64,000 bases of DNA, from contig CM067527.1 in the NCBI GenBank assembly GCA_034509925.1, positions 12,703,001-12,767,000 on the forward strand. Direction: 5' to 3'. Positions 34,548 to 63,553 of this stretch are shown in pieces. Position 1 is the stretch's first letter. Each line of letters begins with the position of its first letter. Position numbers and translations under genes: made by a program. This DNA comes from Hirudinaria manillensis (taxonomy: Eukaryota; Annelida; Clitellata; Hirudinida; Hirudinidae). The notes under the pieces were generated by a model. The model did not search any database. It saw only the letters and a list, made by a program, of their open reading frames with translations, and was not told where the DNA came from.

Positions 34548-34598
34548 TGAGGTTATTCGACACGTTCACATCATCGGATCTGATATCGCCAAAAGAAA

Positions 34599-38022: not shown

Positions 38023-38681
38023 GGGGCCAAAATCTCTGCCAGAAAGCTCGTCCAAGTGTTTCAAACCATACGTATTGTTAAAGCGAAATAACAAACATTT
38101 CATACTTTAACTATTGTCTAGCAACGCCCTATATTGTTAGTTTGCGCCGTTAGAACAGATATTTTATTATTTATTTTATTTATTTTAGATTGGTTTGAAC
38201 CATTTAATTTTATGAAAACAAGCGATGAAAACTGGCTAAACAAATCCATCGTAGAAGTATTTCAGGATTTTGACAAAAATTGTCATCTCCCTCATTCAGC
38301 CAACTACGCACTTGCACAAGTGTAGGATGAAAGTCAGAAACATAGTTGATATAATAAAATAAAAAAAAAATTCACTTCAAATCTTGTATCTAAGTAGTGA
38401 CTAAAGTAATTTATTAATCCTCACGTCACAAAATATATAATATCTGCCAAATTCAATAAAAGAGGTTTGAATTTATGAAAACGCAACAATGTGTGGCTTC
38501 CACAATGACAAATTACACCAATGTCACACAATTGTTAACAGACAATCAAATAAATTTTAACAGAACCAAAGTGACATTTATATCATGTCAACTTGATTAA
38601 TTCAATTTTAAATCGTTTCAATTTTACATAGTTATTAGAATAATTCATTGATTGAAAGGCTTTATTATTGAACCCTTCTAG
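38023..38681. other. Gene-poor segment of the duplicated block
   Basis: About 38,272-38,520 is homologous to 27,765-28,110. A short shared reading (FDKNCHL-HSANYAL-QV) ends in a stop in both, but its upstream parts differ and it is not called a gene. Confidence 0.4.
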
Positions 38682-45605: not shown

Positions 45606-45660
45606 CATTTTTTTAACCCTGGCAAAGTTACCTTATTGGAATTGTTATGATTGGTAGCAA
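45606..45660. other. Short 3' flank of lectin A
   Basis: Still homologous to the 3' flank of lectin B; the poly(A) site was not identified. Confidence 0.4.
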
Positions 45661-45822
45661 CAAAAACATGCTTCTTAAACTCGGCAGGGAAAAGAAGGCT
45701 TCGACATTCTACTTTTACTACGAATAAAAAATAATTATATTATTAGCATATATTTTTTGAAACGGCGCAAACTTGGAACAATGCGAAGAGTTTTCAAGAT
45801 AAACTCAAGGCGGTCGATAAAT
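45661..45822 (+). pseudogene. Decayed relic of the TRF2-like array unit
   Basis: The first part corresponds to the array spacer: ATGCTTCTTAAACTCGGCAG for ATGCGCTCTAAAATCGGGAG, then TTATTAGCATATATTTTTTG and AACGGCGCAAACTTGGAACA. It jumps directly to ACTCAAGGCGGTCGATAAAT, which is codon 162 onward of the TRF2-like gene. Most of the gene is deleted and many bases have changed. It is the oldest-looking copy in the window. Confidence 0.85.
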
Positions 45823-47555
45823 TTTTATTTTTACATATTTAAATTGGGATGATTGAAAAGACATCGTCATGGATTTATCACTTGCTTCACGAAACAAGAT
45901 ATAAAAAAAAGATATGATAAATTTCTTAGTAATTTATTACACTTTCATTGTTTTACTGATTTCTGAAATGGAATGATAAGGCATAATCACAGCACAAATC
46001 ATAGAGTAGCGTGATAAATGCTTTTCATCCCTGGTAACTACACTAAGTGCACTTTATAAATTGTGATTTTAAAATGGATATTTCACTCACATAAGTTATT
46101 TAACTGCTATAAAATAACATAAACAAGTCATCACAAAGCACACGTTCATCACGTTGATGTCTATCTACTCCGTTGGAATACGGTATTTTATGGCTGACTA
46201 CTTTCTTAATATTTTTGTATCCATTCAAACGTAGGAATTGCCAATGGTTGAGAAAGTACTTGCAAATATGTAAGTAACTTAATAGAGGTATATCGAGAGG
46301 TATATGAAAATAAAAATTAAAAGTTTTTTTCTAAATCTTAAATTTTATAACAAAATGAGTCATCAAAATATGGAATGTAGTACTGCTTTTCAGCGCATGC
46401 TATTCAATCACGTTAATAAATTGTATAAGCTTAATACATTATAATAATTATTTAACGAATTATTCAACTAGTAGCCACAAAATCTATAATTAGCTCGTTT
46501 AATGTTGAATCACGTGAAAATAAATATTTTGGAGGGTTTTACCATCGTGCAAAAGATGAACGATGCCATCAATCCATCACCAACTGCAGAAGTACGTATG
46601 ACCTTAATAATTTCTCATTAAGTCAGTAATTAATTAATTAATTTTAATTAATTTTAAAAGATGTAATTAATAAACACATCGAACGATATTATTTATAATT
46701 TAATTATTATTACAATTCAATGTTGAAAAGGTTTTAATTTAAAAAAATCTTTAACGTTGGTAATTCATTTCCATAACAATTGACAAATATCGTTCATATG
46801 TATTGAATGCCTATGTTATCATAAATAATATTCACACTGTAAACTCAAGAAATTAAGCTACTTTAAGGAGGAAAAACCAGGGAGCTGATAAGTTGGACTT
46901 TGTTTATCCTTTGGTTATTTTGTTAACCCTGGTTGAGTGAATGGTCGCGTGTTAAATTCACCTCCAAGCTGTGCTGGTAGAAGAACCGAAAGGACGCGCA
47001 AAAACAGAGAAAAATTATTTGCAAAAGGCAGAGAGTGAGATTGAATTTACAGATGTACAGAATTAATCATAATTTGTTTGCATTTGATTATTATTGTATA
47101 AAATATTTGTGAAAATAAATATGGAAAACTTATAATGCTTTTTTAAAATAACTCAAATAAATTTAATGACCAAATATTAAAACAACGTCAAATAAGCAAA
47201 TCACAAATTGTTTTTGTTTATATTGTCTTATTATCAGATTTAATGCTCTGATAATTCCACAAATGAAAACAGAATTGGGGCTTTGTCTTTGCAAATGAAA
47301 AATTAATTTCTATTGGCATTATCTAATCAACTTATCTTAATGCTTAGCATGAGCATTATCTAATCAGCTGATTAATTGAAACCATAATTTAAACAGAATT
47401 ATGGTCCCTAGTAGATATCCATCCTGACAAATAAATTAGTTAGTAAACACTTCTTAATCTGATCATCTAGGGACAATTGAGATAGCATTTATTAATTTAT
47501 AAGCATGAAAATCAGGCAATGCAGATCAACAGAAGATTAGTAAACAGTGGTCACA
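45823..47555. other. Spacer, then left flank of lectin copy B
   Basis: 45,823-46,840 has no gene. From about 46,850 the sequence repeats the flank of lectin A. Confidence 0.55.
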
Positions 47556-49320
47556 ATGTTAAGGACGGGAGCACATATCGTAGTCATTCTTCTGTATTGC
47601 AGAACTTCTTTCGGAGGTTAGCAGAAACTAGTGACCACATATCTGAAGTTTAGTGTAGTTTATCAATTGGAGATTTAAATAATATTTTTCTTAAGCTTAC
47701 AATATAATATAATAATCATTACTGCAAAATTATGAAACACTAATATCATAATACTACATAACGTGAACAGAATTATTTCCGAGATCGAAAATTAGACCCA
47801 TCCAAAGTAAATCGTATAACGGACGTGAGGCGAAATTTGCCATCGATGATGACGTATTCAGCTACTCAACTGCTATAGGATCGAAGGACCCTCATCCTGA
47901 CGCTTGGATCGGCGTGCCTTGGTGGGAAGCGGATCTGGAATTCTTGCATACAGTCATTGCCATTGTTATTGTTGGGCCACCTGCTGATGGGCGTGAGTAT
48001 TTAATCGTCAGACCTCAGATGGTATGGTATCTTCTATAGGTGTGTTATTTAAACTATTGTTATAACCCTGAAAATAGATAATTAAAAGAATTATGTAAAA
48101 TTATATGACGATATAAAATTGGTGCTACTATACAGAGTCTTCTGTTAGGTTTGATAATGGAGCTCGTCAAATCGGGAAACGAGCAAGGCAGAGCGAGAGT
48201 CAGAGCGAAAGCAGAGAGTGAGGGAAATAGCAAATTCGAATACCTAGACAATTAGGCATTGAATAGCTTCCAAGCCATCTGAGCAATTTCAATAAACCTG
48301 ACCTACCATAATTAGTTTGAGGATCCGGGTTATTGCACTATATAACTAGAAGAAACAGACCATAGGGAAACAGATTAATAATAATGGAAATCTAAAGTTT
48401 TGTATGGTATCTTCTATAGCTACAGCAGAATGTCTCTTCGTTTCTTTGGAGTTCTTATATATATTATTAGCCACAACATCTGGTTTATTGAAAATTTGCT
48501 CTAAGAAAAATGTTTTATCGCTTTTATCATCTGTATCTATCAGTACGCATGGCATAGACATTCAAGCAGGAAGCGTTTTTAACGTTTCTTTGCTGTTGAG
48601 GCAGCTTTTTTTCACTAGTCCAATAGTAAGCAGATAACTAATTAAAGATCAGTTTCCATTACTCTGAATGATAGTTGTACACTTTCTTTTTTTGTCCATT
48701 ACGGGAAGTTGCATCCTAGACATACCTTTTTCGAGATTTCTTTGTAGTGAGTGCATTTAAAAGTTTCGTCCATCGCTTTTGGCATACTTTAATGATATTG
48801 TGATGTAATATTTACAATCCCTTGCTGATATCGTTACATGGTACAATATCTTAGATTTGGTTGTAGCTGGTATGCTTTTTCATTGACGGTAATTCCAGCT
48901 TGAGCCATATAGAGTAGAACACCTGAATTCATTTATATCTTTAGTACTATTTATAATTTTTAAAAAATCTGAAAAACGATAAGCTGTGAAGTTGAAAGAT
49001 TAATATCTTGTTTTTTTCAATTTCTTCACATCATATCTCAATTTTAATGCAACAAACTATTTATTGCAGATAGTAGAGGGCTATCTAACATCGCCGTTGA
49101 AATCATGCCATCAAGTCTTCTGACATTTCAGTGGAAGCCAGGAGCGGTATATTGCGGCACTATATCAGCAAATTATGTTGTACCACTCCGCGAAAGATTA
49201 ATCTTGACATGTATGCAATATAATTTCGGTAGATTTGTCCTGATTAGAAAATTGGGGCGTTACGGAAGTGTTAGTCTATCGGAAGTTGAAATTCATGTGT
49301 CTCAATTAAATTTCTTTTAA
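47556..49320 (+). CDS. Secreted fucolectin-like (FTP / F5/8C-fold) protein, copy B
   Basis: The exons are 47556-47616, 47771-47992 and 49070-49320, again 177 aa. Exons 1 and 2 are nearly identical to copy A at DNA level (one visible amino-acid change, Ile to Val, in the exon 2 hydrophobic strand). Exon 3 differs at several residues (LSNIAVEIM, GAVYCGTISANY, RERLILTC). The uneven divergence suggests that gene conversion or selection acted on one part. Intron 2 is longer than in copy A because of a 280-bp insertion at 48058-48337. Confidence 0.75.
48058..48337. mobile_element. 280-bp MITE-like insertion in intron 2 of lectin B
   Basis: Lectin A has an uninterrupted AAACTATATAACTAG at the matching site, so the empty site is known. 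The insert begins TGTTATAACCC and ends GGGTTATTGCA, an 11-bp terminal inverted repeat with two mismatches. It is flanked by a CTAT duplication (or ACTAT, 5 bp). No transposase frame is present. It is a non-autonomous DNA transposon; the superfamily is uncertain. Confidence 0.8.
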
Positions 49321-49612
49321 AATTTTTTTAACTCTGGCAAAGTTACCTTATTGAAATTAATGAGATAGGGAGCAAAGTTATTTATATTTCGATGATATAA
49401 TAAGATATGAAGAGGAACTGATTGAAAAAAAGATTTCCAAATGAAGTAATCTGCATAAACTTCAAGGATAAAGGAATACTGCAAATGAAACGAAATTGTA
49501 AAAATTTTTAAACAATACGACTAAATAATCTTGACTTCTTTGTTCATAATTGAATTATAATTAATGAAACATCTTGTACAAGTTTTGGGAAAAATGATCA
49601 AAAATAAAATAA
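49321..49612. other. Spacer between lectin B and the TRF2-like array
   Basis: The first 50 bases match the 3' flank of lectin A. The rest has no recognised content. Confidence 0.5.
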
Positions 49613-49684
49613 GCATGCGAATATCCTTAGACAATTGCAGATGAACTCAGCGTTTACTTTAGCAACGTCTTCAACTCCGGTTGA
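49613..49684 (+). pseudogene. Broken first unit of the TRF2-like array
   Basis: It keeps the sequence just before the start codon and the first 13 codons, but ATG is changed to TTG. It then jumps to TTCAACTCCGGT (codons 147-150) and again to the 3' UTR (GGGGTCATTTTCAGAAG). Two internal deletions remove the gene, while the 3' UTR and the spacer that carries the promoter of copy 1 are intact. Confidence 0.92.
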
Positions 49685-49925
49685 TTTAGGGGTCATTTTC
49701 AGAAGAAAAGGGATTGTTTTGATCGGGAGACTTTTTATTATGTATCAAAATAAAATATTATCGAATTAAATGTTTCTTATTTTTAGAATATTTATATTTT
49801 CAAATTTAAAACAAAAAAAAAACGTAAAAAAATGCGCTCTAAAATCGGGAGGGAAATGCCGGGATCGAAATTACGATTTTTTTTTAATAAAAAATAACAA
49901 TATTATTAGCAAATATTTTTTGGAA

Positions 49926-50030
49926 CGGCGCCAACTTCGAACAATGGCGCGCATCGTCGCTAGCGCGCATGCTGCTAGCAGGCATTCATAGACATCTATA
50001 TAAGGCCGCGCGCCGTGAAATTCATCATTT
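49926..50030 (+). promoter_or_regulatory. Conserved TATA/initiator promoter of the TRF2-like genes (copy 1)
   Basis: TATATAAG lies at 49997-50004, 95 bases before the ATG. TCATTT at 50025-50030 is a perfect match to the initiator TCAKTY, and its A at 50027 lies 30 bases from the first T of the TATA box. Upstream are CGGCGCCAA (49926-49934) and TGGCGCGC (49945-49952), both E2F-like, and GCGCGCAT occurs twice 16 bases apart (49947 and 49963). The same motifs precede the other 13 genes at the same spacing (for example TATATAAG at 50967 for copy 2). The leader of about 65 nt has no upstream ATG. Factor binding is inferred. Confidence 0.8.
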
Positions 50031-50091
50031 CCACATTCGCTTGGCGTTCTGACGGGTGAGGCTCCGATAAGCGTGCGAATATACTTAAACA

Positions 50092-50634
50092 ATGGCGGAT
50101 GAACTCAGCGTTTACTTTAGCAACGTCGTTTGCTCGTTCAAAACGTCACATCCCATCGACCTGAGACTGCTCTGTTCCAGAGCAAATAACATCGTCTACG
50201 ATGCACGAAAAAATATGTGTCGCATGGACTTGACGGAACCGAGAGTATTCGCCAGCATTTGGTCGACCGGCAAGGTCGTGTGTGCCGGGGCGCAGCTCGA
50301 GCAAGAAGCTTTGGACAACGCCAAATTCGTTGCAAGACTAATAAGGAACCTCGGTTTCCAAGTGGAAATGCGCAATTACAGGATCACGAATGTGATGGCA
50401 TCCTGCAAATTGCCATTCAAAGTCGACCTGAACCTGTTGTCGAGAAAGTGCCCCGGCCTAATCTACGAGGCAGAGATTCACCCGGGAGCGATGTTGAAAA
50501 TTCCCGAGTACAATACCTCAATGACGATCTTCAACTCCGGTAGCATGACCATGTTCGGGACGAGTTGTCAAAATATACTCAAGGCGGTCGAGAAATTCCT
50601 GATATCCACGGGATATCCCGTGGTACAGGATTAA
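50092..50634 (+). CDS. TBP-like factor (TRF2/TLF/TBPL1 type), array copy 1
   Basis: 180 codons, no intron. The protein is only the saddle-shaped TBP core with its two direct repeats (about residues 8-95 and 96-178). It resembles TBPL1/TRF2 rather than TBP: NVVCSFKT at the start, IWSTGKVVCAGA in repeat 1 (W57 where TBP has an intercalating Phe), LGFQV (F89), IYEAEIHPGAMLKI and TIFNSGSMTMFG in repeat 2 (F147). Only two of the four DNA-kinking Phe of TBP remain; the fourth place seems to hold Y175. TRF2 proteins bind TFIIA and TFIIB but not TATA DNA and serve TATA-less promoters, and TBPL1 works in spermatogenesis in mouse. Length fits human TBPL1 (186 aa), not the long insect TRF2. Intronless, so probably a retrocopy. 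This copy: Lys119, AAACA before ATG, spacer type GCTAGCAGG. Confidence 0.95.
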   Translation: MADELSVYFSNVVCSFKTSHPIDLRLLCSRANNIVYDARKNMCRMDLTEPRVFASIWSTGKVVCAGAQLEQEALDNAKFVARLIRNLGFQVEMRNYRITNVMASCKLPFKVDLNLLSRKCPGLIYEAEIHPGAMLKIPEYNTSMTIFNSGSMTMFGTSCQNILKAVEKFLISTGYPVVQD

Positions 50635-50718
50635 CGAGGGACGAATGGAATTGATTTCGTGGTCATTTTCTGAAGAAAAGGGATTGTTTTGATCGGGAGA
50701 CTTTTTATTATGTATCAA

Positions 50719-50724
50719 AATAAA
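50719..50724 (+). terminator. Poly(A) signal of array copy 1
   Basis: AATAAA 84 bases after the stop codon (AAAATAAATTATT). The same signal recurs in every unit; after copies 9, 12, 13 and 14 it reads AAAATAAAATATT. Confidence 0.75.
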
Positions 50725-51061
50725 TTATTATCGAATTAAATATTTGTTATTTTTAGAATATTTAAATTTCCAAATTTAAAACAAAAAAAAACGTAAAAAA
50801 AAATGCGCTCTAAAATCGGGAGGGAAATGCCGGGATCGAAATTACGATTTTTTTTTATAAAAAATAACAATATTATTACCAAATATTTTTTGGAACGGCG
50901 CCAACTTCGAACAATGGCGCGCATCGTCGCTAGCGCGCATGCTGCTAGCAGGCATTCATAGACATCTATATAAGGCCGCGCGCCGTGAAATTCATCATTT
51001 CCACATTCGCTTGGCGTTCTGACGGGTGAGGCTCCGATAAGCGTGCGAATATACTTAAACA

Positions 51062-51604
51062 ATGGCGGATGAACTCAGCGTTTACTTTAGCAACGTCGTT
51101 TGCTCGTTCAAAACGTCACATCCCATCGACCTGAGACTGCTCTGTTCCAGAGCAAATAACATCGTCTACGATGCACGAAAAAATATGTGTCGCATGGACT
51201 TGACGGAACCGAGAGTATTCGCCAGCATTTGGTCGACCGGCAAGGTCGTGTGTGCCGGGGCGCAGCTCGAGCAAGAAGCTTTGGACAACGCCAAATTCGT
51301 TGCAAGACTAATAAGGAACCTCGGTTTCCAAGTGGAAATGCGCAATTACAGGATCACGAATGTGATGGCATCCTGCAAATTGCCATTCAAAGTCGACCTG
51401 AACCTGTTGTCGAGAAATTGCCCCGGCCTAATCTACGAGGCAGAGATTCACCCGGGAGCGATGTTGAAAATTCCCGAGTACAATACCTCAATGACGATCT
51501 TCAACTCCGGTAGCATGACCATGTTCGGGACGAGTTGTCAAAATATACTCAAGGCGGTCGAGAAATTCCTGATATCCACGGGATATCCCGTGGTACAGGA
51601 TTAA
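51062..51604 (+). CDS. TRF2/TBPL1-like factor, array copy 2
   Basis: Differs from copy 1 by Asn119 in place of Lys (AAT for AAG), just before the second-repeat core CPGLIYEAE. It keeps AAACA before the start, TCTGTTCC in the coding region and spacer type GCTAGCAGG. Confidence 0.95.
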   Translation: MADELSVYFSNVVCSFKTSHPIDLRLLCSRANNIVYDARKNMCRMDLTEPRVFASIWSTGKVVCAGAQLEQEALDNAKFVARLIRNLGFQVEMRNYRITNVMASCKLPFKVDLNLLSRNCPGLIYEAEIHPGAMLKIPEYNTSMTIFNSGSMTMFGTSCQNILKAVEKFLISTGYPVVQD

Positions 51605-52029
51605 CGAGGGACGAATGGAATTGATTTCGTGGTCATTTTCTGAAGAAAAGGGATTGTTTTGATCGGGAGACTTTTTATTATGTATCAAAATAAATTATTA
51701 TCGAATTAAATATTTGTTATTTTTAGAATATTTAAATTTCCAAATTTCAAACAAAAAAAACGTAAAAAAAATGCGCTCTAAAATCGGGAGGGAAATGCCG
51801 GGATCGAAATTACGATTTTTTTTTATAAAAAATAACAATATTATTACCAAATATTTTTTGGAACGGCGCCAACTTCGAACAATGGCGCGCATCGTCGCTA
51901 GCGCGCATGCTGCTATCAGGCATTCATAGACATCTATATAAGGCCGCGCGCCGTGAAATTCATCATTTCCACATTCGCTTGGCGTTCTGACGGGTGAGGC
52001 TCCGATAAGCGTGCGAATATACTTAAACA

Positions 52030-52572
52030 ATGGCGGATGAACTCAGCGTTTACTTTAGCAACGTCGTTTGCTCGTTCAAAACGTCACATCCCATCGACCT
52101 GAGACTGCTCTGTTCCAGAGCAAATAACATCGTCTACGATGCACGAAAAAATATGTGTCGCATGGACTTGACGGAACCGAGAGTATTCGCCAGCATTTGG
52201 TCGACCGGCAAGGTCGTGTGTGCCGGGGCGCAGCTCGAGCAAGAAGCTTTGGACAACGCCAAATTCGTTGCAAGACTAATAAGGAACCTCGGTTTCCAAG
52301 TGGAAATGCGCAATTACAGGATCACGAATGTGATGGCATCCTGCAAATTGCCATTCAAAGTCGACCTGAACCTGTTGTCGAGAAATTGCCCCGGCCTAAT
52401 CTACGAGGCAGAGATTCACCCGGGAGCGATGTTGAAAATTCCCGAGTACAATACCTCAATGACGATCTTCAACTCCGGTAGCATGACCATGTTCGGGACG
52501 AGTTGTCAAAATATACTCAAGGCGGTCGAGAAATTCCTGATATCCACGGGATATCCCGTGGTACAGGATTAA
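52030..52572 (+). CDS. TRF2/TBPL1-like factor, array copy 3
   Basis: Asn119 variant, with AAACA before the start. The upstream spacer changes here to GCTATCAGG, the type shared by copies 3 to 9, 13 and 14. Confidence 0.95.
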   Translation: MADELSVYFSNVVCSFKTSHPIDLRLLCSRANNIVYDARKNMCRMDLTEPRVFASIWSTGKVVCAGAQLEQEALDNAKFVARLIRNLGFQVEMRNYRITNVMASCKLPFKVDLNLLSRNCPGLIYEAEIHPGAMLKIPEYNTSMTIFNSGSMTMFGTSCQNILKAVEKFLISTGYPVVQD

Positions 52573-53002
52573 CGAGGGACGAATGGAATTGATTTCGTGG
52601 TCATTTTCTGAAGAAAAGGGATTGTTTTGATCGGGAGACTTTTTATTATGTATCAAAATAAATTATTATCGAATTAAATATTTGTTATTTTTAGAATATT
52701 TAAATTTCCAAATTTCAAACAAAAAAAACGTAAAAAAAATGCGCTCTAAAATCGGGAGGGAAATGCCGGGATCGAAATTACGATTTTTTTTTTTTTTATA
52801 AAAAATAACAATATTATTACCAAATATTTTTTGGAACGGCGCCAACTTCGAACAATGGCGCGCATCGTCGCTAGCGCGCATGCTGCTATCAGGCATTCAT
52901 AGACATCTATATAAGGCCGCGCGCCGTGAAATTCATCATTTCCACATTCGCTTGGCGTTCTGACGGGTGAGGCTCCGATAAGCGTGCGAATATACTTAGA
53001 CA

Positions 53003-53545
53003 ATGGCGGATGAACTCAGCGTTTACTTTAGCAACGTCGTTTGCTCGTTCAAAACGTCACATCCCATCGACCTGAGACTGCTCTGCTCCAGAGCAAATAA
53101 CATCGTCTACGATGCACGAAAAAATATGTGTCGCATGGACTTGACGGAACCGAGAGTATTCGCCAGCATTTGGTCGACCGGCAAGGTCGTGTGTGCCGGG
53201 GCGCAGCTCGAGCAAGAAGCTTTGGACAACGCCAAATTCGTTGCAAGACTAATAAGGAACCTCGGTTTCCAAGTGGAAATGCGCAATTACAGGATCACGA
53301 ATGTGATGGCATCCTGCAAATTGCCATTCAAAGTCGACCTGAACCTGTTGTCGAGAAATTGCCCCGGCCTAATCTACGAGGCAGAGATTCACCCGGGAGC
53401 GATGTTGAAAATTCCCGAGTACAATACCTCAATGACGATCTTCAACTCCGGTAGCATGACCATGTTCGGGACGAGTTGTCAAAATATACTCAAGGCGGTC
53501 GAGAAATTCCTGATATCCACGGGATATCCCGTGGTACAGGATTAA
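53003..53545 (+). CDS. TRF2/TBPL1-like factor, array copy 4
   Basis: Last of the three contiguous Asn119 copies. It combines Asn119 with AGACA before the start and the silent TCTGCTCC variant, a combination found nowhere else in the array. Its upstream poly-T run is the longest, which explains the 973-bp unit. Confidence 0.95.
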   Translation: MADELSVYFSNVVCSFKTSHPIDLRLLCSRANNIVYDARKNMCRMDLTEPRVFASIWSTGKVVCAGAQLEQEALDNAKFVARLIRNLGFQVEMRNYRITNVMASCKLPFKVDLNLLSRNCPGLIYEAEIHPGAMLKIPEYNTSMTIFNSGSMTMFGTSCQNILKAVEKFLISTGYPVVQD

Positions 53546-53970
53546 CGAGGGACGAATGGAATTGATTTCGTGGTCATTTTCTGAAGAAAAGGGATTGTTT
53601 TGATCGGGAGACTTTTTATTATGTATCAAAATAAATTATTATCGAATTAAATATTTGTTATTTTTAGAATATTTAAATTTCCAAATTTAAAACAAAAAAA
53701 ACGTAAAAAAAATGCGCTCTAAAATCGGGAGGGAAATGCCGGGATCGAAATTACGATTTTTTTTTATAAAAAATAACAATATTATTACCAAATATTTTTT
53801 GGAACGGCGCCAACTTCGAACAATGGCGCGCATCGTCGCTAGCGCGCATGCTGCTATCAGGCATTCATAGACATCTATATAAGGCCGCGCGCCGTGAAAT
53901 TCATCATTTCCACATTCGCTTGGCGTTCTGACGGGTGAGGCTCCGATAAGCGTGCGAATATACTTAAACA

Positions 53971-54513
53971 ATGGCGGATGAACTCAGCGTTTACTTTAGC
54001 AACGTCGTTTGCTCGTTCAAAACGTCACATCCCATCGACCTGAGACTGCTCTGTTCCAGAGCAAATAACATCGTCTACGATGCACGAAAAAATATGTGTC
54101 GCATGGACTTGACGGAACCGAGAGTATTCGCCAGCATTTGGTCGACCGGCAAGGTCGTGTGTGCCGGGGCGCAGCTCGAGCAAGAAGCTTTGGACAACGC
54201 CAAATTCGTTGCAAGACTAATAAGGAACCTCGGTTTCCAAGTGGAAATGCGCAATTACAGGATCACGAATGTGATGGCATCCTGCAAATTGCCATTCAAA
54301 GTCGACCTGAACCTGTTGTCGAGAAAGTGCCCCGGCCTAATCTACGAGGCAGAGATTCACCCGGGAGCGATGTTGAAAATTCCCGAGTACAATACCTCAA
54401 TGACGATCTTCAACTCCGGTAGCATGACCATGTTCGGGACGAGTTGTCAAAATATACTCAAGGCGGTCGAGAAATTCCTGATATCCACGGGATATCCCGT
54501 GGTACAGGATTAA
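53971..54513 (+). CDS. TRF2/TBPL1-like factor, array copy 5
   Basis: Back to Lys119, with AAACA and TCTGTTCC. The protein is identical to copy 1. Confidence 0.95.
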   Translation: MADELSVYFSNVVCSFKTSHPIDLRLLCSRANNIVYDARKNMCRMDLTEPRVFASIWSTGKVVCAGAQLEQEALDNAKFVARLIRNLGFQVEMRNYRITNVMASCKLPFKVDLNLLSRKCPGLIYEAEIHPGAMLKIPEYNTSMTIFNSGSMTMFGTSCQNILKAVEKFLISTGYPVVQD

Positions 54514-54937
54514 CGAGGGACGAATGGAATTGATTTCGTGGTCATTTTCTGAAGAAAAGGGATTGTTTTGATCGGGAGACTTTTTATTATGTATCAAAAT
54601 AAATTATTATCGAATTAAATATTTGTTATTTTTAGAATATTTAAATTTCCAAATTTAAAACAAAAAAACGTAAAAAAAATGCGCTCTAAAATCGGGAGGG
54701 AAATGCCGGGATCGAAATTACGATTTTTTTTTATAAAAAATAACAATATTATTACCAAATATTTTTTGGAACGGCGCCAACTTCGAACAATGGCGCGCAT
54801 CGTCGCTAGCGCGCATGCTGCTATCAGGCATTCATAGACATCTATATAAGGCCGCGCGCCGTGAAATTCATCATTTCCACATTCGCTTGGCGTTCTGACG
54901 GGTGAGGCTCCGATAAGCGTGCGAATATACTTAAACA

Positions 54938-55480
54938 ATGGCGGATGAACTCAGCGTTTACTTTAGCAACGTCGTTTGCTCGTTCAAAACGTCACATCCC
55001 ATCGACCTGAGACTGCTCTGTTCCAGAGCAAATAACATCGTCTACGATGCACGAAAAAATATGTGTCGCATGGACTTGACGGAACCGAGAGTATTCGCCA
55101 GCATTTGGTCGACCGGCAAGGTCGTGTGTGCCGGGGCGCAGCTCGAGCAAGAAGCTTTGGACAACGCCAAATTCGTTGCAAGACTAATAAGGAACCTCGG
55201 TTTCCAAGTGGAAATGCGCAATTACAGGATCACGAATGTGATGGCATCCTGCAAATTGCCATTCAAAGTCGACCTGAACCTGTTGTCGAGAAAGTGCCCC
55301 GGCCTAATCTACGAGGCAGAGATTCACCCGGGAGCGATGTTGAAAATTCCCGAGTACAATACCTCAATGACGATCTTCAACTCCGGTAGCATGACCATGT
55401 TCGGGACGAGTTGTCAAAATATACTCAAGGCGGTCGAGAAATTCCTGATATCCACGGGATATCCCGTGGTACAGGATTAA
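54938..55480 (+). CDS. TRF2/TBPL1-like factor, array copy 6
   Basis: Lys119, AAACA and TCTGTTCC, the same haplotype as copies 5 and 7. The A run in the upstream spacer is slightly shortened, giving a 967-bp unit. Confidence 0.95.
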   Translation: MADELSVYFSNVVCSFKTSHPIDLRLLCSRANNIVYDARKNMCRMDLTEPRVFASIWSTGKVVCAGAQLEQEALDNAKFVARLIRNLGFQVEMRNYRITNVMASCKLPFKVDLNLLSRKCPGLIYEAEIHPGAMLKIPEYNTSMTIFNSGSMTMFGTSCQNILKAVEKFLISTGYPVVQD

Positions 55481-55903
55481 CGAGGGACGAATGGAATTGA
55501 TTTCGTGGTCATTTTCTGAAGAAAAGGGATTGTTTTGATCGGGAGACTTTTTATTATGTATCAAAATAAATTATTATCGAATTAAATATTTGTTATTTTT
55601 AGAATATTTAAATTTCCAAATTTAAAACAAAAAAACGTAAAAAAAATGCGCTCTAAAATCGGGAGGGAAATGCCGGGATCGAAATTACGATTTTTTTTAT
55701 AAAAAATAACAATATTATTACCAAATATTTTTTGGAACGGCGCCAACTTCGAACAATGGCGCGCATCGTCGCTAGCGCGCATGCTGCTATCAGGCATTCA
55801 TAGACATCTATATAAGGCCGCGCGCCGTGAAATTCATCATTTCCACATTCGCTTGGCGTTCTGACGGGTGAGGCTCCGATAAGCGTGCGAATATACTTAA
55901 ACA

Positions 55904-56446
55904 ATGGCGGATGAACTCAGCGTTTACTTTAGCAACGTCGTTTGCTCGTTCAAAACGTCACATCCCATCGACCTGAGACTGCTCTGTTCCAGAGCAAATA
56001 ACATCGTCTACGATGCACGAAAAAATATGTGTCGCATGGACTTGACGGAACCGAGAGTATTCGCCAGCATTTGGTCGACCGGCAAGGTCGTGTGTGCCGG
56101 GGCGCAGCTCGAGCAAGAAGCTTTGGACAACGCCAAATTCGTTGCAAGACTAATAAGGAACCTCGGTTTCCAAGTGGAAATGCGCAATTACAGGATCACG
56201 AATGTGATGGCATCCTGCAAATTGCCATTCAAAGTCGACCTGAACCTGTTGTCGAGAAAGTGCCCCGGCCTAATCTACGAGGCAGAGATTCACCCGGGAG
56301 CGATGTTGAAAATTCCCGAGTACAATACCTCAATGACGATCTTCAACTCCGGTAGCATGACCATGTTCGGGACGAGTTGTCAAAATATACTCAAGGCGGT
56401 CGAGAAATTCCTGATATCCACGGGATATCCCGTGGTACAGGATTAA
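55904..56446 (+). CDS. TRF2/TBPL1-like factor, array copy 7
   Basis: Lys119, AAACA and TCTGTTCC. It closes the shortest unit (966 bp) of the array. Confidence 0.95.
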   Translation: MADELSVYFSNVVCSFKTSHPIDLRLLCSRANNIVYDARKNMCRMDLTEPRVFASIWSTGKVVCAGAQLEQEALDNAKFVARLIRNLGFQVEMRNYRITNVMASCKLPFKVDLNLLSRKCPGLIYEAEIHPGAMLKIPEYNTSMTIFNSGSMTMFGTSCQNILKAVEKFLISTGYPVVQD

Positions 56447-56873
56447 CGAGGGACGAATGGAATTGATTTCGTGGTCATTTTCTGAAGAAAAGGGATTGTT
56501 TTGATCGGGAGACTTTTTATTATGTATCAAAATAAATTATTATCGAATTAAATATTTGTTATTTTTAGAATATTTAAATTTCCAAATTTAAAACAAAAAA
56601 AAAACGTAAAAAAAAATGCGCTCTAAAATCGGGAGGGAAATGCCGGGATCGAAATTACGATTTTTTTTATAAAAAATAACAATATTATTACCAAATATTT
56701 TTTGGAACGGCGCCAACTTCGAACAATGGCGCGCATCGTCGCTAGCGCGCATGCTGCTATCAGGCATTCATAGACATCTATATAAGGCCGCGCGCCGTGA
56801 AATTCATCATTTCCACATTCGCTTGGCGTTCTGACGGGTGAGGCTCCGATAAGCGTGCGAATATACTTAGACA

Positions 56874-57416
56874 ATGGCGGATGAACTCAGCGTTTACTTT
56901 AGCAACGTCGTTTGCTCGTTCAAAACGTCACATCCCATCGACCTGAGACTGCTCTGCTCCAGAGCAAATAACATCGTCTACGATGCACGAAAAAATATGT
57001 GTCGCATGGACTTGACGGAACCGAGAGTATTCGCCAGCATTTGGTCGACCGGCAAGGTCGTGTGTGCCGGGGCGCAGCTCGAGCAAGAAGCTTTGGACAA
57101 CGCCAAATTCGTTGCAAGACTAATAAGGAACCTCGGTTTCCAAGTGGAAATGCGCAATTACAGGATCACGAATGTGATGGCATCCTGCAAATTGCCATTC
57201 AAAGTCGACCTGAACCTGTTGTCGAGAAAGTGCCCCGGCCTAATCTACGAGGCAGAGATTCACCCGGGAGCGATGTTGAAAATTCCCGAGTACAATACCT
57301 CAATGACGATCTTCAACTCCGGTAGCATGACCATGTTCGGGACGAGTTGTCAAAATATACTCAAGGCGGTCGAGAAATTCCTGATATCCACGGGATATCC
57401 CGTGGTACAGGATTAA
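56874..57416 (+). CDS. TRF2/TBPL1-like factor, array copy 8
   Basis: Lys119 with AGACA before the start and the silent TCTGCTCC variant. The protein is identical to copy 1. Confidence 0.95.
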   Translation: MADELSVYFSNVVCSFKTSHPIDLRLLCSRANNIVYDARKNMCRMDLTEPRVFASIWSTGKVVCAGAQLEQEALDNAKFVARLIRNLGFQVEMRNYRITNVMASCKLPFKVDLNLLSRKCPGLIYEAEIHPGAMLKIPEYNTSMTIFNSGSMTMFGTSCQNILKAVEKFLISTGYPVVQD

Positions 57417-57842
57417 CGAGGGACGAATGGAATTGATTTCGTGGTCATTTTCTGAAGAAAAGGGATTGTTTTGATCGGGAGACTTTTTATTATGTATCAA
57501 AATAAATTATTATCGAATTAAATATTTGTTATTTTTAGAATATTTAAATTTCCAAATTTAAAACAAAAAAAAACGTAAAAAAAATGCGCTCTAAAATCGG
57601 GAGGGAAATGCCGGGATCGAAATTACGATTTTTTTTTATAAAAAATAACAATATTATTACCAAATATTTTTTGGAACGGCGCCAACTTCGAACAATGGCG
57701 CGCATCGTCGCTAGCGCGCATGCTGCTATCAGGCATTCATAGACATCTATATAAGGCCGCGCGCCGTGAAATTCATCATTTCCACATTCGCTTGGCGTTC
57801 TGACGGGTGAGGCTCCGATAAGCGTGCGAATATACTTAGACA

Positions 57843-58385
57843 ATGGCGGATGAACTCAGCGTTTACTTTAGCAACGTCGTTTGCTCGTTCAAAACGTCAC
57901 ATCCCATCGACCTGAGACTGCTCTGCTCCAGAGCAAATAACATCGTCTACGATGCACGAAAAAATATGTGTCGCATGGACTTGACGGAACCGAGAGTATT
58001 CGCCAGCATTTGGTCGACCGGCAAGGTCGTGTGTGCCGGGGCGCAGCTCGAGCAAGAAGCTTTGGACAACGCCAAATTCGTTGCAAGACTAATAAGGAAC
58101 CTCGGTTTCCAAGTGGAAATGCGCAATTACAGGATCACGAATGTGATGGCATCCTGCAAATTGCCATTCAAAGTCGACCTGAACCTGTTGTCGAGAAAGT
58201 GCCCCGGCCTAATCTACGAGGCAGAGATTCACCCGGGAGCGATGTTGAAAATTCCCGAGTACAATACCTCAATGACGATCTTCAACTCCGGTAGCATGAC
58301 CATGTTCGGGACGAGTTGTCAAAATATACTCAAGGCGGTCGAGAAATTCCTGATATCCACGGGATATCCCGTGGTACAGGATTAA
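57843..58385 (+). CDS. TRF2/TBPL1-like factor, array copy 9
   Basis: Lys119, AGACA and TCTGCTCC. Its 3' UTR reads TTTTCAGAAG instead of TTTTCTGAAG, a variant shared with copy 12 and the broken first unit. Confidence 0.95.
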   Translation: MADELSVYFSNVVCSFKTSHPIDLRLLCSRANNIVYDARKNMCRMDLTEPRVFASIWSTGKVVCAGAQLEQEALDNAKFVARLIRNLGFQVEMRNYRITNVMASCKLPFKVDLNLLSRKCPGLIYEAEIHPGAMLKIPEYNTSMTIFNSGSMTMFGTSCQNILKAVEKFLISTGYPVVQD

Positions 58386-58827
58386 CGAGGGACGAATGGA
58401 ATTGATTTCGTGGTCATTTTCAGAAGAAAAGGGATTGTTTTGATCGGGAGACTTTTTATTATGTATCAAAATAAAATATTATTATCGAATTAAATATTTG
58501 TTATTTTTAGAATATTTAAATTTCCAAATTTAAAACAAAAAAAAACGTAAAAAAAAATGCGCTCTAAAATCGGGAGGGAAATGCCGGGATCGAAATTACG
58601 ATTTTTTTTTAAATATTTATTTATAAAAAATAACAATATTATTAGCAAATATTTTTTGGAACGGCGCCAACTTCGAACAATGGCGCGCATCGTCGCTAGC
58701 GCGCATGCTGCTAGCAGGCATTCATAGACATCTATATAAGGCCGCGCGCCGTGAAATTCATCATTTCCACATTCGCTTGGCGTTCTGACGGGTGAGGCTC
58801 CGATAAGCGTGCGAATATACTTAAACA

Positions 58828-59370
58828 ATGGCGGATGAACTCAGCGTTTACTTTAGCAACGTCGTTTGCTCGTTCAAAACGTCACATCCCATCGACCTGA
58901 GACTGCTCTGCTCCAGAGCAAATAACATCGTCTACGATGCACGAAAAAATATGTGTCGCATGGACTTGACGGAACCGAGAGTATTCGCCAGCATTTGGTC
59001 GACCGGCAAGGTCGTGTGTGCCGGGGCGCAGCTCGAGCAAGAAGCTTTGGACAACGCCAAATTCGTTGCAAGACTAATAAGGAACCTCGGTTTCCAAGTG
59101 GAAATGCGCAATTACAGGATCACGAATGTGATGGCATCCTGCAAATTGCCATTCAAAGTCGACCTGAACCTGTTGTCGAGAAAGTGCCCCGGCCTAATCT
59201 ACGAGGCAGAGATTCACCCGGGAGCGATGTTGAAAATTCCCGAGTACAATACCTCAATGACGATCTTCAACTCCGGTAGCATGACCATGTTCGGGACGAG
59301 TTGTCAAAATATACTCAAGGCGGTCGAGAAATTCCTGATATCCACGGGATATCCCGTGGTACAGGATTAA
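58828..59370 (+). CDS. TRF2/TBPL1-like factor, array copy 10
   Basis: First unit with the longer AATATTTATTTA-type spacer. It has AAACA before the start but the TCTGCTCC coding variant, a recombinant of the two common haplotypes. Its 3' UTR has TTTCGGGGTC, shared with copy 13. Confidence 0.95.
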   Translation: MADELSVYFSNVVCSFKTSHPIDLRLLCSRANNIVYDARKNMCRMDLTEPRVFASIWSTGKVVCAGAQLEQEALDNAKFVARLIRNLGFQVEMRNYRITNVMASCKLPFKVDLNLLSRKCPGLIYEAEIHPGAMLKIPEYNTSMTIFNSGSMTMFGTSCQNILKAVEKFLISTGYPVVQD

Positions 59371-59808
59371 CGAGGGACGAATGGAATTGATTTCGGGGTC
59401 ATTTTCTGAAGAAAAGGGATTGTTTTGATCGGGAGACTTTTTATTATGTATCAAAATAAATTATTATCGAATTAAATATTTGTTATTTTTAGAATATTTA
59501 AATTTCCAAATTTCAAACAAAAAAAAACGTAAAAAAAATGCGCTCTAAAATCGGGAGGGAAATGCCGGGATCGAAATTACGATTTTTTTTAAAATATTTA
59601 TTTATAAAAAATAACAATATTATTAGCAAATATTTTTTGGAACGGCGCCAACTTCGAACAATGGCGCGCATCGTCGCTAGCGCGCATGCTGCTAGCAGGC
59701 ATTCATAGACATCTATATAAGGCCGCGCGCCGTGAAATTCATCATTTCCACATTCGCTTGGCGTTCTGACGGGTGAGGCTCCGATAAGCGTGCGAATATA
59801 CTTAAACA

Positions 59809-60351
59809 ATGGCGGATGAACTCAGCGTTTACTTTAGCAACGTCGTTTGCTCGTTCAAAACGTCACATCCCATCGACCTGAGACTGCTCTGTTCCAGAGC
59901 AAATAACATCGTCTACGATGCACGAAAAAATATGTGTCGCATGGACTTGACGGAACCGAGAGTATTCGCCAGCATTTGGTCGACCGGCAAGGTAGTGTGT
60001 GCCGGGGCGCAGCTCGAGCAAGAAGCTTTGGACAACGCCAAATTCGTTGCAAGACTAATAAGGAACCTCGGTTTCCAAGTGGAAATGCGCAATTACAGGA
60101 TCACGAATGTGATGGCATCCTGCAAATTGCCATTCAAAGTCGACCTGAACCTGTTGTCGAGAAAGTGCCCCGGCCTAATCTACGAGGCAGAGATTCACCC
60201 GGGAGCGATGTTGAAAATTCCCGAGTACAATACCTCAATGACGATCTTCAACTCCGGTAGCATGACCATGTTCGGGACGAGTTGTCAAAATATACTCAAG
60301 GCGGTCGAGAAATTCCTGATATCCACGGGATATCCCGTGGTACAGGATTAA
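59809..60351 (+). CDS. TRF2/TBPL1-like factor, array copy 11
   Basis: Lys119, AAACA and TCTGTTCC, plus a private silent change (GTA for GTC at codon 62). The protein is unchanged. Confidence 0.95.
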   Translation: MADELSVYFSNVVCSFKTSHPIDLRLLCSRANNIVYDARKNMCRMDLTEPRVFASIWSTGKVVCAGAQLEQEALDNAKFVARLIRNLGFQVEMRNYRITNVMASCKLPFKVDLNLLSRKCPGLIYEAEIHPGAMLKIPEYNTSMTIFNSGSMTMFGTSCQNILKAVEKFLISTGYPVVQD

Positions 60352-60791
60352 CGAGGGACGAATGGAATTGATTTCGTGGTCATTTTCTGAAGAAAAGGGA
60401 TTGTTTTGATCGGGAGACTTTTTATTATGTATCAAAATAAATTATTATCGAATTAAATATTTGTTATTTTTAGAATATTTAAATTTCCAAATTTAAAACA
60501 AAAAAAAAACGTAAAAGAAAATGCGCTCTAAAATCGGGAGGGAAATGCCGGGATCGAAATTACGATTTTTTTTTAAATATTTATTTATAAAAAATAACAA
60601 TATTATTAGCAAATATTTTTTGGAACGGCGCCAACTTCGAACAATGGCGCGCATCGTCGCTAGCGCGCATGCTGCTAGCAGGCATTCATAGACATCTATA
60701 TAAGGCCGCGCGCCGTGAAATTCATCATTTCCACATTCGCTTGGCGTTCTGACGGGTGAGGCTCCGATAAGCGTGCGAATATACTTAGACA

Positions 60792-61334
60792 ATGGCGGAT
60801 GAACTCAGCGTTTACTTTAGCAACGTCGTTTGCTCGTTCAAAACGTCACATCCCATCGACCTGAGACTGCTCTGCTCCAGAGCAAATAACATCGTCTACG
60901 ATGCACGAAAAAATATGTGTCGCATGGACTTGACGGAACCGAGAGTATTCGCCAGCATTTGGTCGACCGGCAAGGTCGTGTGTGCCGGGGCGCAGCTCGA
61001 GCAAGAAGCTTTGGACAACGCCAAATTCGTTGCAAGACTAATAAGGAACCTCGGTTTCCAAGTGGAAATGCGCAATTACAGGATCACGAATGTGATGGCA
61101 TCCTGCAAATTGCCATTCAAAGTCGACCTGAACCTGTTGTCGAGAAAGTGCCCCGGCCTAATCTACGAGGCAGAGATTCACCCGGGAGCGATGTTGAAAA
61201 TTCCCGAGTACAATACCTCAATGACGATCTTCAACTCCGGTAGCATGACCATGTTCGGGACGAGTTGTCAAAATATACTCAAGGCGGTCGAGAAATTCCT
61301 GATATCCACGGGATATCCCGTGGTACAGGATTAA
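60792..61334 (+). CDS. TRF2/TBPL1-like factor, array copy 12
   Basis: Lys119, AGACA and TCTGCTCC, with the long spacer type and GCTAGCAGG. The 3' UTR TTTTCAGAAG variant is shared with copy 9. Confidence 0.95.
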   Translation: MADELSVYFSNVVCSFKTSHPIDLRLLCSRANNIVYDARKNMCRMDLTEPRVFASIWSTGKVVCAGAQLEQEALDNAKFVARLIRNLGFQVEMRNYRITNVMASCKLPFKVDLNLLSRKCPGLIYEAEIHPGAMLKIPEYNTSMTIFNSGSMTMFGTSCQNILKAVEKFLISTGYPVVQD

Positions 61335-61777
61335 CGAGGGACGAATGGAATTGATTTCGTGGTCATTTTCAGAAGAAAAGGGATTGTTTTGATCGGGAGA
61401 CTTTTTATTATGTATCAAAATAAAATATTATCGAATTAAATATTTGTTATTTTTAGAATATGTAAATTTCCAAATTTAAAACAAGAAAAAAAAACGGGGA
61501 AAAAATGCGCTCTAAAATCGGGAGGGAAATGCCGGGATCGAAATTACGATTTTTATTTAAAATATTTTTTTAATAAAAAATAACAATATTATTAGCAAAT
61601 ATTTTTTGGAACGGCGCCAACTTCGAACAATGGCGCGCATCGTCGCTAGCGCGCATGCTGCTATCAGGCATTCATAGACATCTATATAAGGCCGCGCGCC
61701 GTGAAATTCATCATTTCCACATTCGCTTGGCGTTCTGACGGGTGAGGCTCCGATAAGCGTGCGAATATACTTAGACA

Positions 61778-62320
61778 ATGGCGGATGAACTCAGCGTTTA
61801 CTTTAGCAACGTCGTTTGCTCGTTCAAAACGTCACATCCCATCGACCTGAGACTGCTCTGCTCCAGAGCAAATAACATCGTCTACGATGCACGAAAAAAT
61901 ATGTGTCGCATGGACTTGACGGAACCGAGAGTATTCGCCAGCATTTGGTCGACCGGCAAGGTCGTGTGTGCCGGGGCGCAGCTCGAGCAAGAAGCTTTGG
62001 ACAACGCCAAATTCGTTGCAAGACTAATAAGGAACCTCGGTTTCCAAGTGGAAATGCGCAATTACAGGATCACGAATGTGATGGCATCCTGCAAATTGCC
62101 ATTCAAAGTCGACCTGAACCTGTTGTCGAGAAAGTGCCCCGGCCTAATCTACGAGGCAGAGATTCACCCGGGAGCGATGTTGAAAATTCCCGAGTACAAT
62201 ACCTCAATGACGATCTTCAACTCCGGTAGCATGACCATGTTCGGGACGAGTTGTCAAAATATACTCAAGGCGGTCGAGAAATTCCTGATATCCACGGGAT
62301 ATCCCGTGGTACAGGATTAA
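61778..62320 (+). CDS. TRF2/TBPL1-like factor, array copy 13
   Basis: Lys119, AGACA and TCTGCTCC. The upstream spacer is the most diverged of the array (AACGGGGAAAAAATGCG, TTTTTATTTAAAATATT), while the promoter and gene remain intact. Confidence 0.95.
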   Translation: MADELSVYFSNVVCSFKTSHPIDLRLLCSRANNIVYDARKNMCRMDLTEPRVFASIWSTGKVVCAGAQLEQEALDNAKFVARLIRNLGFQVEMRNYRITNVMASCKLPFKVDLNLLSRKCPGLIYEAEIHPGAMLKIPEYNTSMTIFNSGSMTMFGTSCQNILKAVEKFLISTGYPVVQD

Positions 62321-62746
62321 CGAGGGACGAATGGAATTGATTTCGGGGTCATTTTCTGAAGAAAAGGGATTGTTTTGATCGGGAGACTTTTTATTATGTA
62401 TCAAAATAAAATATTATCGAATTAAATATTTCTTATTTTTAGAATATTTATATTTTCAAATTTAAAACAAAAAAAAACGTAAAAAAAATGCGCTCTAAAA
62501 TCGGGAGGGAAATGCCGGGATCGAAATTACGATTTTTTTTTATAAAAAATAACAATATTATTACCAAATATTTTTTGGAACGGCGCCAACTTCGAACAAT
62601 GGCGCGCATCGTCGCTAGCGCGCATGCTGCTATCAGGCATTCATAGACATCTATATAAGGCCGCGCGCCGTGAAATTCATCATTTCCACATTCGCTTGGC
62701 GTTCTGACGGGTGAGGCTCCGATAAGCGTGCGAATATACTTAGACA

Positions 62747-63289
62747 ATGGCGGATGAACTCAGCGTTTACTTTAGCAACGTCGTTTGCTCGTTCAAAACG
62801 TCACATCCCATCGACCTGAGACTGCTCTGCTCCAGAGCAAATAACATCGTCTACGATGCACGAAAAAATATGTGTCGCATGGACTTGACGGAACCGAGAG
62901 TATTCGCCAGCATTTGGTCGACCGGCAAGGTCGTGTGTGCCGGGGCGCAGCTCGAGCAAGAAGCTTTGGACAACGCCAAATTCGTTGCAAGACTAATAAG
63001 GAACCTCGGTTTCCAAGTGGAAATGCGCAATTACAGGATCACGAATGTGATGGCATCCTGCAAATTGCCATTCAAAGTCGACCTGAACCTGTTGTCGAGA
63101 AAGTGCCCCGGCCTAATCTACGAGGCAGAGATTCACCCGGGAGCGATGTTGAAAATTCCCGAGTACAATACCTCAATGACGATCTTCAACTCCGGTAGCA
63201 TGACCATGTTCGGGACGAGTTGTCAAAATATACTCAAGGCGGTCGAGAAATTCCTGATATCCACGGGATATCCCGTGGTACAGGATTAA
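62747..63289 (+). CDS. TRF2/TBPL1-like factor, array copy 14 (last)
   Basis: Lys119, AGACA and TCTGCTCC. The 3' flank TTCTTATTTTTAGAATATTTATATTTTC matches the spacer before copies 1 and 14 more than the inner spacers. The array stops about 264 bases after this stop codon. Confidence 0.95.
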   Translation: MADELSVYFSNVVCSFKTSHPIDLRLLCSRANNIVYDARKNMCRMDLTEPRVFASIWSTGKVVCAGAQLEQEALDNAKFVARLIRNLGFQVEMRNYRITNVMASCKLPFKVDLNLLSRKCPGLIYEAEIHPGAMLKIPEYNTSMTIFNSGSMTMFGTSCQNILKAVEKFLISTGYPVVQD

Positions 63290-63553
63290 CGAGGGACGAA
63301 TGGAATTGATTTCGTGGTCATTTTCTGAAGAAAAGGGATTGTTTTGATCGGGAGACTTTTTATTATGTATCAAAATAAAATATTATCGAATTAAATATTT
63401 CTTATTTTTAGAATATTTATATTTTCAAATTTAAAACAAAAAAAAACGTAAAAAAAATGCGCTCTAAAATCGGGAGGGAAATGCCGGGATCGAAATTACG
63501 ATTTTTTTTAAAATATTTATTTATAAAAAATAACAATATTATTTGCAAATATT

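Follow-up and report, generated by a model that had tools for sequence, protein, structure and literature searches.

Intron-free paralogs of RNA polymerase II initiation genes and a tandem array of TLF/TRF2-type genes in the leech Hirudinaria manillensis

To our knowledge, the established view is that animals run a single RNA polymerase II (Pol II), with cell-type variation limited to a few initiation factors. Variants of these factors in animal germ cells include ALF for TFIIA, TBP2/TRF3, TAF4b, TAF7L and sperm TAF isoforms of flies (PMC3142196). The TBP relative TLF (TRF2, TBPL1) does not recognise the TATA box in other animals, is required for mouse spermatogenesis and pairs with a germ-cell TFIIA paralog (PMC3142196, PMC5006001). 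Binding to TFIIA and TFIIB is a further trait of the TLF family. The ciliate Oxytricha trifallax carries second paralogs of RPB1, 2, 4, 7 and 10, three RPB11 and additional paralogs of TFIIS, TFIIF and TBP1, a set that is preferentially expressed in macronuclear development, whilst plants possess extra polymerases, Pol IV and V, that arose from duplicated Pol II subunits (PMC5312943). Here we analyse a stretch of 64,000 nucleotides from the leech Hirudinaria manillensis (GenBank assembly GCA_034509925.1, CM067527.1, positions 12,703,001 to 12,767,000; hereafter the window) that carries a tandem array of 14 TLF/TRF2-type genes, together with intron-free Pol II genes found across the same genome.

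Like the germ-cell variants of other animals, the leech genes include paralogs of initiation factors, among them TFIIA and a TBP relative; in contrast, the portion of PMC3142196 drawn on here names neither an RPB1 or RPB2 variant nor a tandem array for those variants. Oxytricha resembles the leech in possessing RPB1 and RPB2 paralogs as well as several initiation and elongation factors, although it is a ciliate, no tandem arrays are mentioned for it in the portion of PMC5312943 used, and the leech set is known from genes alone. Both large subunits have intact paralogs in the leech (RPB1 in five long frames, one of them read; RPB2 in five near-full copies, four of them read), and factor paralogs are present for TFIIA, TFIIB, TFIIE-beta, TFIIF-beta, TFIIS and TLF. 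Duplicated Pol II subunits are likewise common to the leech and to plant Pol IV and V, but the leech RPB1 paralog stays Pol II-like, since it scores 1953 bits against solved Pol II RPB1 and 214 against the solved largest subunit of Pol IV. In the open-access full-text literature we found no report of such a set in leeches, nor of duplicated RPB1 or RPB2 in any animal, and the available portion of PMC9174698, on H. manillensis, mentions neither RNA polymerase nor TATA. A second Pol II initiation system, if it exists here, would be the first described in an animal, as far as the literature searched extends, and would make the leech a direct test of whether two Pol II systems can operate in parallel within one animal and of whether a promoter code and a polymerase can evolve together.

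Intron-free Pol II genes across the genome

The genome analysed comprises 148,429,096 bases in 23 contigs, numbered with the prefix C (C1, 14,755,599 bases; C6, 11,463,318; C13, 8,303,845), and the window lies on C2; coordinates are window positions unless prefixed. The published assembly consists of 22 scaffolds of 148.59 Mb with an N50 of 11.46 Mb, plus the mitochondrial genome, and its 13 chromosomes range from 14.76 to 8.30 Mb (PMC10671345). Eight families were searched: TBP, TFIIS, RPB2 and TFIIE-beta, of which a copy was known in or beside the window, and TFIIB, RPB1, TFIIA and TFIIF-beta, which were chosen without prior knowledge of any copy. Intron-free frames were found in all eight, each with split or partial matches of the same family elsewhere, and the four families chosen blind all proved to be intron-free and multicopy. 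In the control family, MCM, all 25 matches fell in exon-sized frames of at most 241 amino acids. This genome-wide set is the main point of the analysis and was missed by an earlier interpretation made from the window alone (the sequence-only reading). Copy counts given below for large families are lower bounds of the genome search.

The five RPB1 frames, of 1634-1723 amino acids, all lie on C8. In the copy that was read, seven RPB1 domains are accompanied by a degenerate tail that has one exact YSPTSPS and 37 Ser-Pro, and the paralog is 71.6% identical to a large exon of the intron-bearing copy on C4. The near-full RPB2 copies are located on C2 and C4, the latter also carrying fragments; the three C4 copies were listed with one stop, and the two of them that were read (L028 and L029) are open for 1153 codons from the ATG common to the four copies read, from which the length of the window copy is also counted, its own frame being open from 11371. 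Split, intron-bearing RPB2 loci are present at C13:1120395-1126704 and C2:8018368-8026046, with 43-80% piecewise identity to the intron-free copy, and four exons of the C13 copy share 69-76% identity with the paralog. A long TGGA-type repeat lies between exons of the C13 locus. The RPB1 paralog contains NADFDGDEMN and the RPB2 paralog keeps a 12-residue segment, which we take to be catalytic, the RPB2 segments having been drawn partly from the paralog itself and affording no independent test. One of four RPB1 motifs looked for is absent from both the paralog and the intron-bearing copy, and the motif as used seems to be wrong. A viral origin of the RPB2 paralog was considered and rejected, as solved Pol II RPB2 chains match the window copy at 1681 bits, compared with 385 and 210 for 8q3b and 6rfl, the two viral-type homologs recognised among the matches.

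The initiation and elongation factors are similarly dispersed or arrayed. A 106-kb stretch of C2 holds intron-free RPB2 (two copies), TFIIS (four), TLF (14) and TFIIE-beta (one); elsewhere, C12 carries another two intron-free TFIIS genes, C6 a partial TFIIS match and a split TFIIE-beta match, and C4 a TFIIE-beta match with stops. TFIIB is present in 19 copies on C10 (15 direct and four inverted), 17 of which form frames of at least 300 amino acids, with one more intron-free copy on C11 and split matches on C1. For TFIIA, C3 carries at least nine copies and C1 a split match. Beyond the array, the TBP family comprises two TLF copies on C6 (one partly readable) and two intron-free TBP-like copies on C8. 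Its intron-bearing members are TBP, found on C1 and also on the small contig C15, and the TLF of C3; C9 carries a further TBP paralog. Of the six TFIIF-beta frames, which measure 250-270 amino acids, C8 has five and C1 has one; C10 contains a split match. A distance of about 1.9 kb separates the RPB1 and TFIIF-beta matches at four of the five C8 RPB1 loci, and the pair seems to be a cassette that duplicates as a unit.

Several further loci touch these families. On C1 an RPB1 match with stops and TFIIF-beta lie 1.6 kb apart. At C8:3219606-3267299 (L035) a unit of about 1.9 kb is present 26 times in tandem, and the genome search gives every unit a frame of 471 amino acids; in the one that was scanned, a protein kinase domain precedes a TFIIB-type repeat (27.1 bits, cut-off 23.6), a fusion of which we know no other example. 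Single frames of 445-453 amino acids, near the kinase-TFIIB size and with a TFIIB-type match, are found at C11:8140170, C2:9531430 and C2:7626878.

The TLF array and its protein

All 14 frames of 180 codons are intact and lie on the + strand between 50092 and 63289, at start-to-start distances of 966-986 bp (13 intervals), and their coding sequences differ at three positions only. The variants at nucleotides 84 and 186 are in third positions and leave the protein unaltered, whilst that at nucleotide 357 decides between K, present in 11 copies, and N, present in copies 2, 3 and 4. Per-site diversity is 0.0019 for the coding sequence of the 14 copies and 0.0103 for the spacer, of which 13 copies were compared (the last was left out because it enters unique flank), and indel columns number 0 and 34, respectively. 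The sequence-only reading had described an intronless tandem amplification of 14 near-identical, full-length frames on one strand, spaced by about 970 bp and bounded at 49613 and 63553; the array agrees with this description, and even the ends were correct to a few bases (a coding scrap starts at 49609 and a partial unit reaches 63553). A single TLF gene per genome had been our own expectation, rather than a defining trait of the family, and the leech instead carries 14 in tandem, two on C6 and one on C3. The array is a natural case of the amplification of a core-promoter factor.

The only Pfam match of the array protein is to TBP (PF00352; 111.9 bits, cut-off 22.9), with two TBP-fold stretches. 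An AlphaFold2 model, for which the input alignment held four sequences, all of this genome, has a mean predicted local distance difference test (pLDDT) score of 89.9 and forms the TBP saddle, with a TM-score of 0.86 to the human TBP core 1cdw; judged by their titles, its 44 top hits among solved structures (E up to 0.001) are TBPs or TBP-containing complexes. In a tree of 14 rows (six rows outside references, three rows joined from exon translations, C6b partial), the TLF side, consisting of the array, the two C6 copies, the intron-bearing C3 TLF, human TBPL1 and Drosophila TRF2, is split from all TBPs with support of 100/100, and the array, C3 and C6 proteins cluster at 100/99. Identity of the array protein is 52% with C6a, 42.5% with the C3 TLF, 35% with human TBPL1 and 29% with human TBP. 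The protein keeps one of the four DNA-intercalating Phe of TBP and has W and H at two others, matching human TBPL1. These sequence comparisons support assignment of the protein to the TLF/TRF2 type. The assignment to the TBP fold and to TRF2/TLF/TBPL1 made in the sequence-only reading, which had proposed an HMM search and a phylogeny as checks, was upheld, the fold by the Pfam match and the TLF side by the tree. In fold, tree position, W/H sites and identity to TBPL1 the array protein is like animal TLF/TRF2/TBPL1; it differs in being encoded by intron-free genes, 14 in tandem and two on C6, beside the intron-bearing TLF. A viral origin of this protein was also tried and discarded, as none of 22 stretches that fitted the pattern in a scan of viral contigs was confirmed as a relative.

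Promoters, selection and possible explanations

Fifteen upstream regions were inspected, and those of Yju2, PPWD1 and five other genes were then added. Two upstream types are present: a TATA box at the arrays and an ATATTC...ATCTTT element at dispersed genes. The same TATA box starts 95 bp before the ATG in all 14 TLF copies, and the array boxes as a whole lie 95-127 bp before the ATG in a GC-rich context (TLF 14/14, TFIIB 3/3, TFIIA 3/3, kinase-TFIIB 2/2). Nine of 11 dispersed genes pass a leave-one-out test for the second element in which 1000 first-order Markov simulations served as background: RPB2, TFIIS, TFIIE-beta, TLF_C6a, TFIIS_C12b and Yju2 (p 0.001 each), TBPL_C8a (0.007), PPWD1 (0.017) and RPB1 (0.041). 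If 2336 windows of the region itself, some true sites among them, are used as the reference instead, the corresponding range is 0.001-0.039. None of the four arrays passes, nor does any of five control genes (three TRIM-like, one ubiquitin-like and one polyubiquitin). The element precedes the ATG by 97-128 bp in eight of the nine passing genes and by 28 bp in PPWD1. Seven of the nine had been chosen by eye before the test, Yju2 and PPWD1 had not, and TFIIB_C11, with 78 bp of upstream sequence only, was left out. A scan of 113.5 kb, in which the RPB2, Yju2, TFIIS and TFIIE-beta families had helped to train the model, gave 15 sites of at least 12.5 bits compared with 3-10 in five simulations, and all seven sites of at least 18 bits lie upstream of RPB2, Yju2, the four TFIIS genes and TFIIE-beta. 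Any bearing of these shared elements on shared expression is indirect. The likeness of ATCTTT to the TCT initiator is regarded as resemblance only, because TCT promoters function with either TBP or TRF2 (PMC10183819).

The RPB2 copies are under strong purifying selection, with ratios of nonsynonymous to synonymous substitution (dN/dS) of 0.038-0.074 in all six pairs of the four copies read (dS 0.05-0.18). The ratio is 0.09-0.35 among the four TFIIS copies of C2 (six pairs), 0.17-0.18 between TFIIB on C10 and C11 (dS near 1.9) and 0.24 between TLF C6a and C6b (dS 1.5), whilst comparisons of the array TLF with the C6 copies are saturated.

The interpretation we lean towards, with modest confidence, is that these genes encode an alternative machinery for Pol II initiation, retroposed and in part amplified, that is probably specific to the germline. 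The array would have arisen recently through tandem amplification and been kept homogeneous, its TLF/TRF2-type factor having lost its introns most likely by retroposition, in which a spliced mRNA was reverse-transcribed and re-inserted into the genome. It would constitute one part of a set comprising TLF, TBP-like, TFIIA, TFIIB, TFIIE-beta, TFIIF-beta, RPB1, RPB2 and TFIIS, whose products may come together, in one setting, as an alternative polymerase and preinitiation complex. The germline is the best guess for that setting, because mouse spermatogenesis requires TLF, which is partnered by a germ-cell TFIIA paralog, and germline use of the array itself is possible. TLF, TFIIA and TFIIB would be needed in quantity and supplied by TATA-driven arrays, whilst polymerase subunits and accessory factors would come from dispersed copies, most of those tested having the common TATA-less element. 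As TLF ignores TATA in other animals, reading the arrays would be left to TBP or the TBP-like copies; the TATA-less element could be recognised by a TLF-type factor with TFIIA, so that the genes bearing it would possibly be read by TLF. More tentatively, and with slightly more doubt than conviction, the genes can be regarded as a second Pol II initiation system with its own factors (TLF, TFIIA, TFIIB, TFIIE, TFIIF, RPB1, RPB2 and TFIIS) and its own promoter code, in which TATA arrays would supply initiation factors and ATATTC...ATCTTT would mark the other genes of the system.

Several observations weigh against an alternative machinery. As intron-bearing versions exist as well, some of the copies may do no more than increase dosage for the ordinary complex. 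The search covered eight families, the control was a single family, and the absence of introns in TFIIF-beta and in four of the five RPB1 copies was judged by frame length. Within the TFIIB array dN/dS is 0.76-1.12 for pairs with 15-33 changes, all four changes of one further pair are nonsynonymous, and within TFIIA the ratio is 1.04-1.30 on 5-6 changes; because these values are near 1, TFIIB and TFIIA copies are not individually shown to be constrained and may be relaxed. In addition, TBPL_C8b and TFIIS_C12a are without the upstream element in the leave-one-out test, and RPB1 (through its p value) and PPWD1 (through its position at -28) pass weakly.

The extra copies might instead simply feed the ordinary Pol II preinitiation complex, for example in growing oocytes, with no separate machinery. 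Dosage had been proposed for the array in the sequence-only reading and was a fair idea. Copies within the arrays are near-identical, and the segments kept by the RPB1 and RPB2 paralogs, taken to be catalytic, mean that these could join the normal enzyme. Dosage alone would, however, predict amplification of the ordinary version, whereas the amplified proteins are paralogs as diverged from the intron-bearing copies as the identities above indicate (RPB2, RPB1 and the array TLF), and the tail of the RPB1 copy read is degenerate; we consider this explanation of the set unlikely. Inverted duplications and tandem arrays, forms that conflict loci often take, together with the TFIIB ratios, which would fit relaxed or changing constraint, would suit a different model, in which the copies are weapons or decoys in a germline conflict such as meiotic drive or transposon control. 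The strong purifying selection on RPB2 and the breadth of eight families argue rather for a working apparatus, and conflict seems improbable. The other reason offered in the sequence-only reading, a sex-linked ampliconic locus, does not fit, by inference, because H. manillensis is a hermaphrodite (PMC9174698).

It is at most about as probable as conflict that the Pol II set is a biased sample of a genome-wide habit, in which leech genomes keep many intron-free retrocopies of abundant mRNAs. Yju2 and the PPWD1-like gene, which are not initiation factors, are also long intron-free frames in the same regions and pass the element test; against this, the MCM matches are all exon-sized, and unselected retrocopies would mostly be broken, whereas those read are intact. 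Near-identical units are also what collapsed or expanded repeats produce, and the array could thus be an assembly artefact or a satellite with relict frames. This we regard as very improbable, given a coding diversity five-fold below that of the spacer, the absence of coding indels and the distinct unit lengths. Collapse or false expansion is unlikely because the HiFi reads of the assembly, with a mean of 18.73 kb (PMC10671345), exceed the 13.9-kb array.

Features of the window and neighbouring genes

The features of the window are collected in the table. A tRNA scan and an Rfam scan of the window gave no matches, and a TTAGG x6 repeat was looked for and not found.

Table. Positions, strands and supporting evidence of features in the window
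Feature	Positions	Strand	Basis
TLF-like gene, copy 1 of 14	50092..50634	+	ORF (open reading frame) and Pfam match
TLF-like gene, copy 2	51062..51604	+	ORF
TLF-like gene, copy 3	52030..52572	+	ORF
TLF-like gene, copy 4	53003..53545	+	ORF
TLF-like gene, copy 5	53971..54513	+	ORF
TLF-like gene, copy 6	54938..55480	+	ORF
TLF-like gene, copy 7	55904..56446	+	ORF
TLF-like gene, copy 8	56874..57416	+	ORF
TLF-like gene, copy 9	57843..58385	+	ORF
TLF-like gene, copy 10	58828..59370	+	ORF
TLF-like gene, copy 11	59809..60351	+	ORF
TLF-like gene, copy 12	60792..61334	+	ORF
TLF-like gene, copy 13	61778..62320	+	ORF
TLF-like gene, copy 14	62747..63289	+	ORF
TATA box TATATAAG of TLF copy 1	49997..50004	+	Upstream sequence
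Array left edge: degenerate 5' coding scrap (49609-49669), then unit spacer from 49681	49609..50091	+	
Array right edge: partial unit, spacer only	63290..63553	+	
Old degenerate TLF-unit fragments, spacer piece then coding piece	45662..45823	+	
Segmental duplication left of array (43399-45660 / 46840-49375, 85-92% identical)	43399..49375	+	
RPB2 paralog (Pol II second-largest subunit), intron-free, 1153 amino acids	11461..14922	+	ORF, Pfam, structure-sequence match
TFIIS paralog copy 1, intron-free, 290 amino acids	32624..33496	+	ORF, Pfam, genome search
TFIIS paralog copy 2; open frame reaches upstream to 36474	36621..37493	+	ORF, Pfam, genome search
TFIIS-bearing inverted duplication, left arm	29853..38517	+	Right arm about 67724-78784, past window end
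Yju2/Saf4 splicing-factor gene, single open frame	23379..24224	-	ORF, Pfam, upstream element
ATATTC...ATCTTT-type element of RPB2, core T 11363	11352..11369	+	Model score
ATATTC...ATCTTT-type element of Yju2, core T 24321	24315..24332	-	Model score
ATATTC...ATCTTT-type element of TFIIS copy 1, core T 32499	32488..32505	+	Model score
ATATTC...ATCTTT-type element of TFIIS copy 2, core T 36496	36485..36502	+	Model score

The second RPB2 copy of C2 is inverted and lies at C2:12672608. Two further TFIIS copies, also inverted, lie to the right of the window (C2:12773770 and C2:12778079), the arms of the inverted duplication that carries TFIIS being 75-94% identical, and a TFIIS fragment with a stop is found at C2:12740813. 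TFIIE-beta occupies C2:12767155-12767973, immediately past the window. A PPWD1-like gene (a spliceosome cyclophilin, named by eye) forms a single long frame at L009:1696-3573, adjoining the C6 TLF copies; the same intron-free set may extend to splicing factors. A polyubiquitin frame, also named by eye and with a degenerate middle repeat, adjoins the C8 TBP-like genes (L010:2185-2874).

Further along C2, the interval C2:12782179-12806361 (window 79179-103361) contains five similar long frames, the scanned one having RING and B-box domains (TRIM-like), and three of the five sit on tandem 3.2-kb duplications; two ubiquitin-like frames, one of them scanned, lie in the same interval. Judged by eye, mitochondrial COX1 is best translated with AGR as Ser, AAA as Lys and ATA as Met (code 5). 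On C9, a nuclear copy of mitochondrial COX1 (C9:3026446-3027786), with a score equal to that of contig C23, is either a recent nuclear transfer or an assembly issue.

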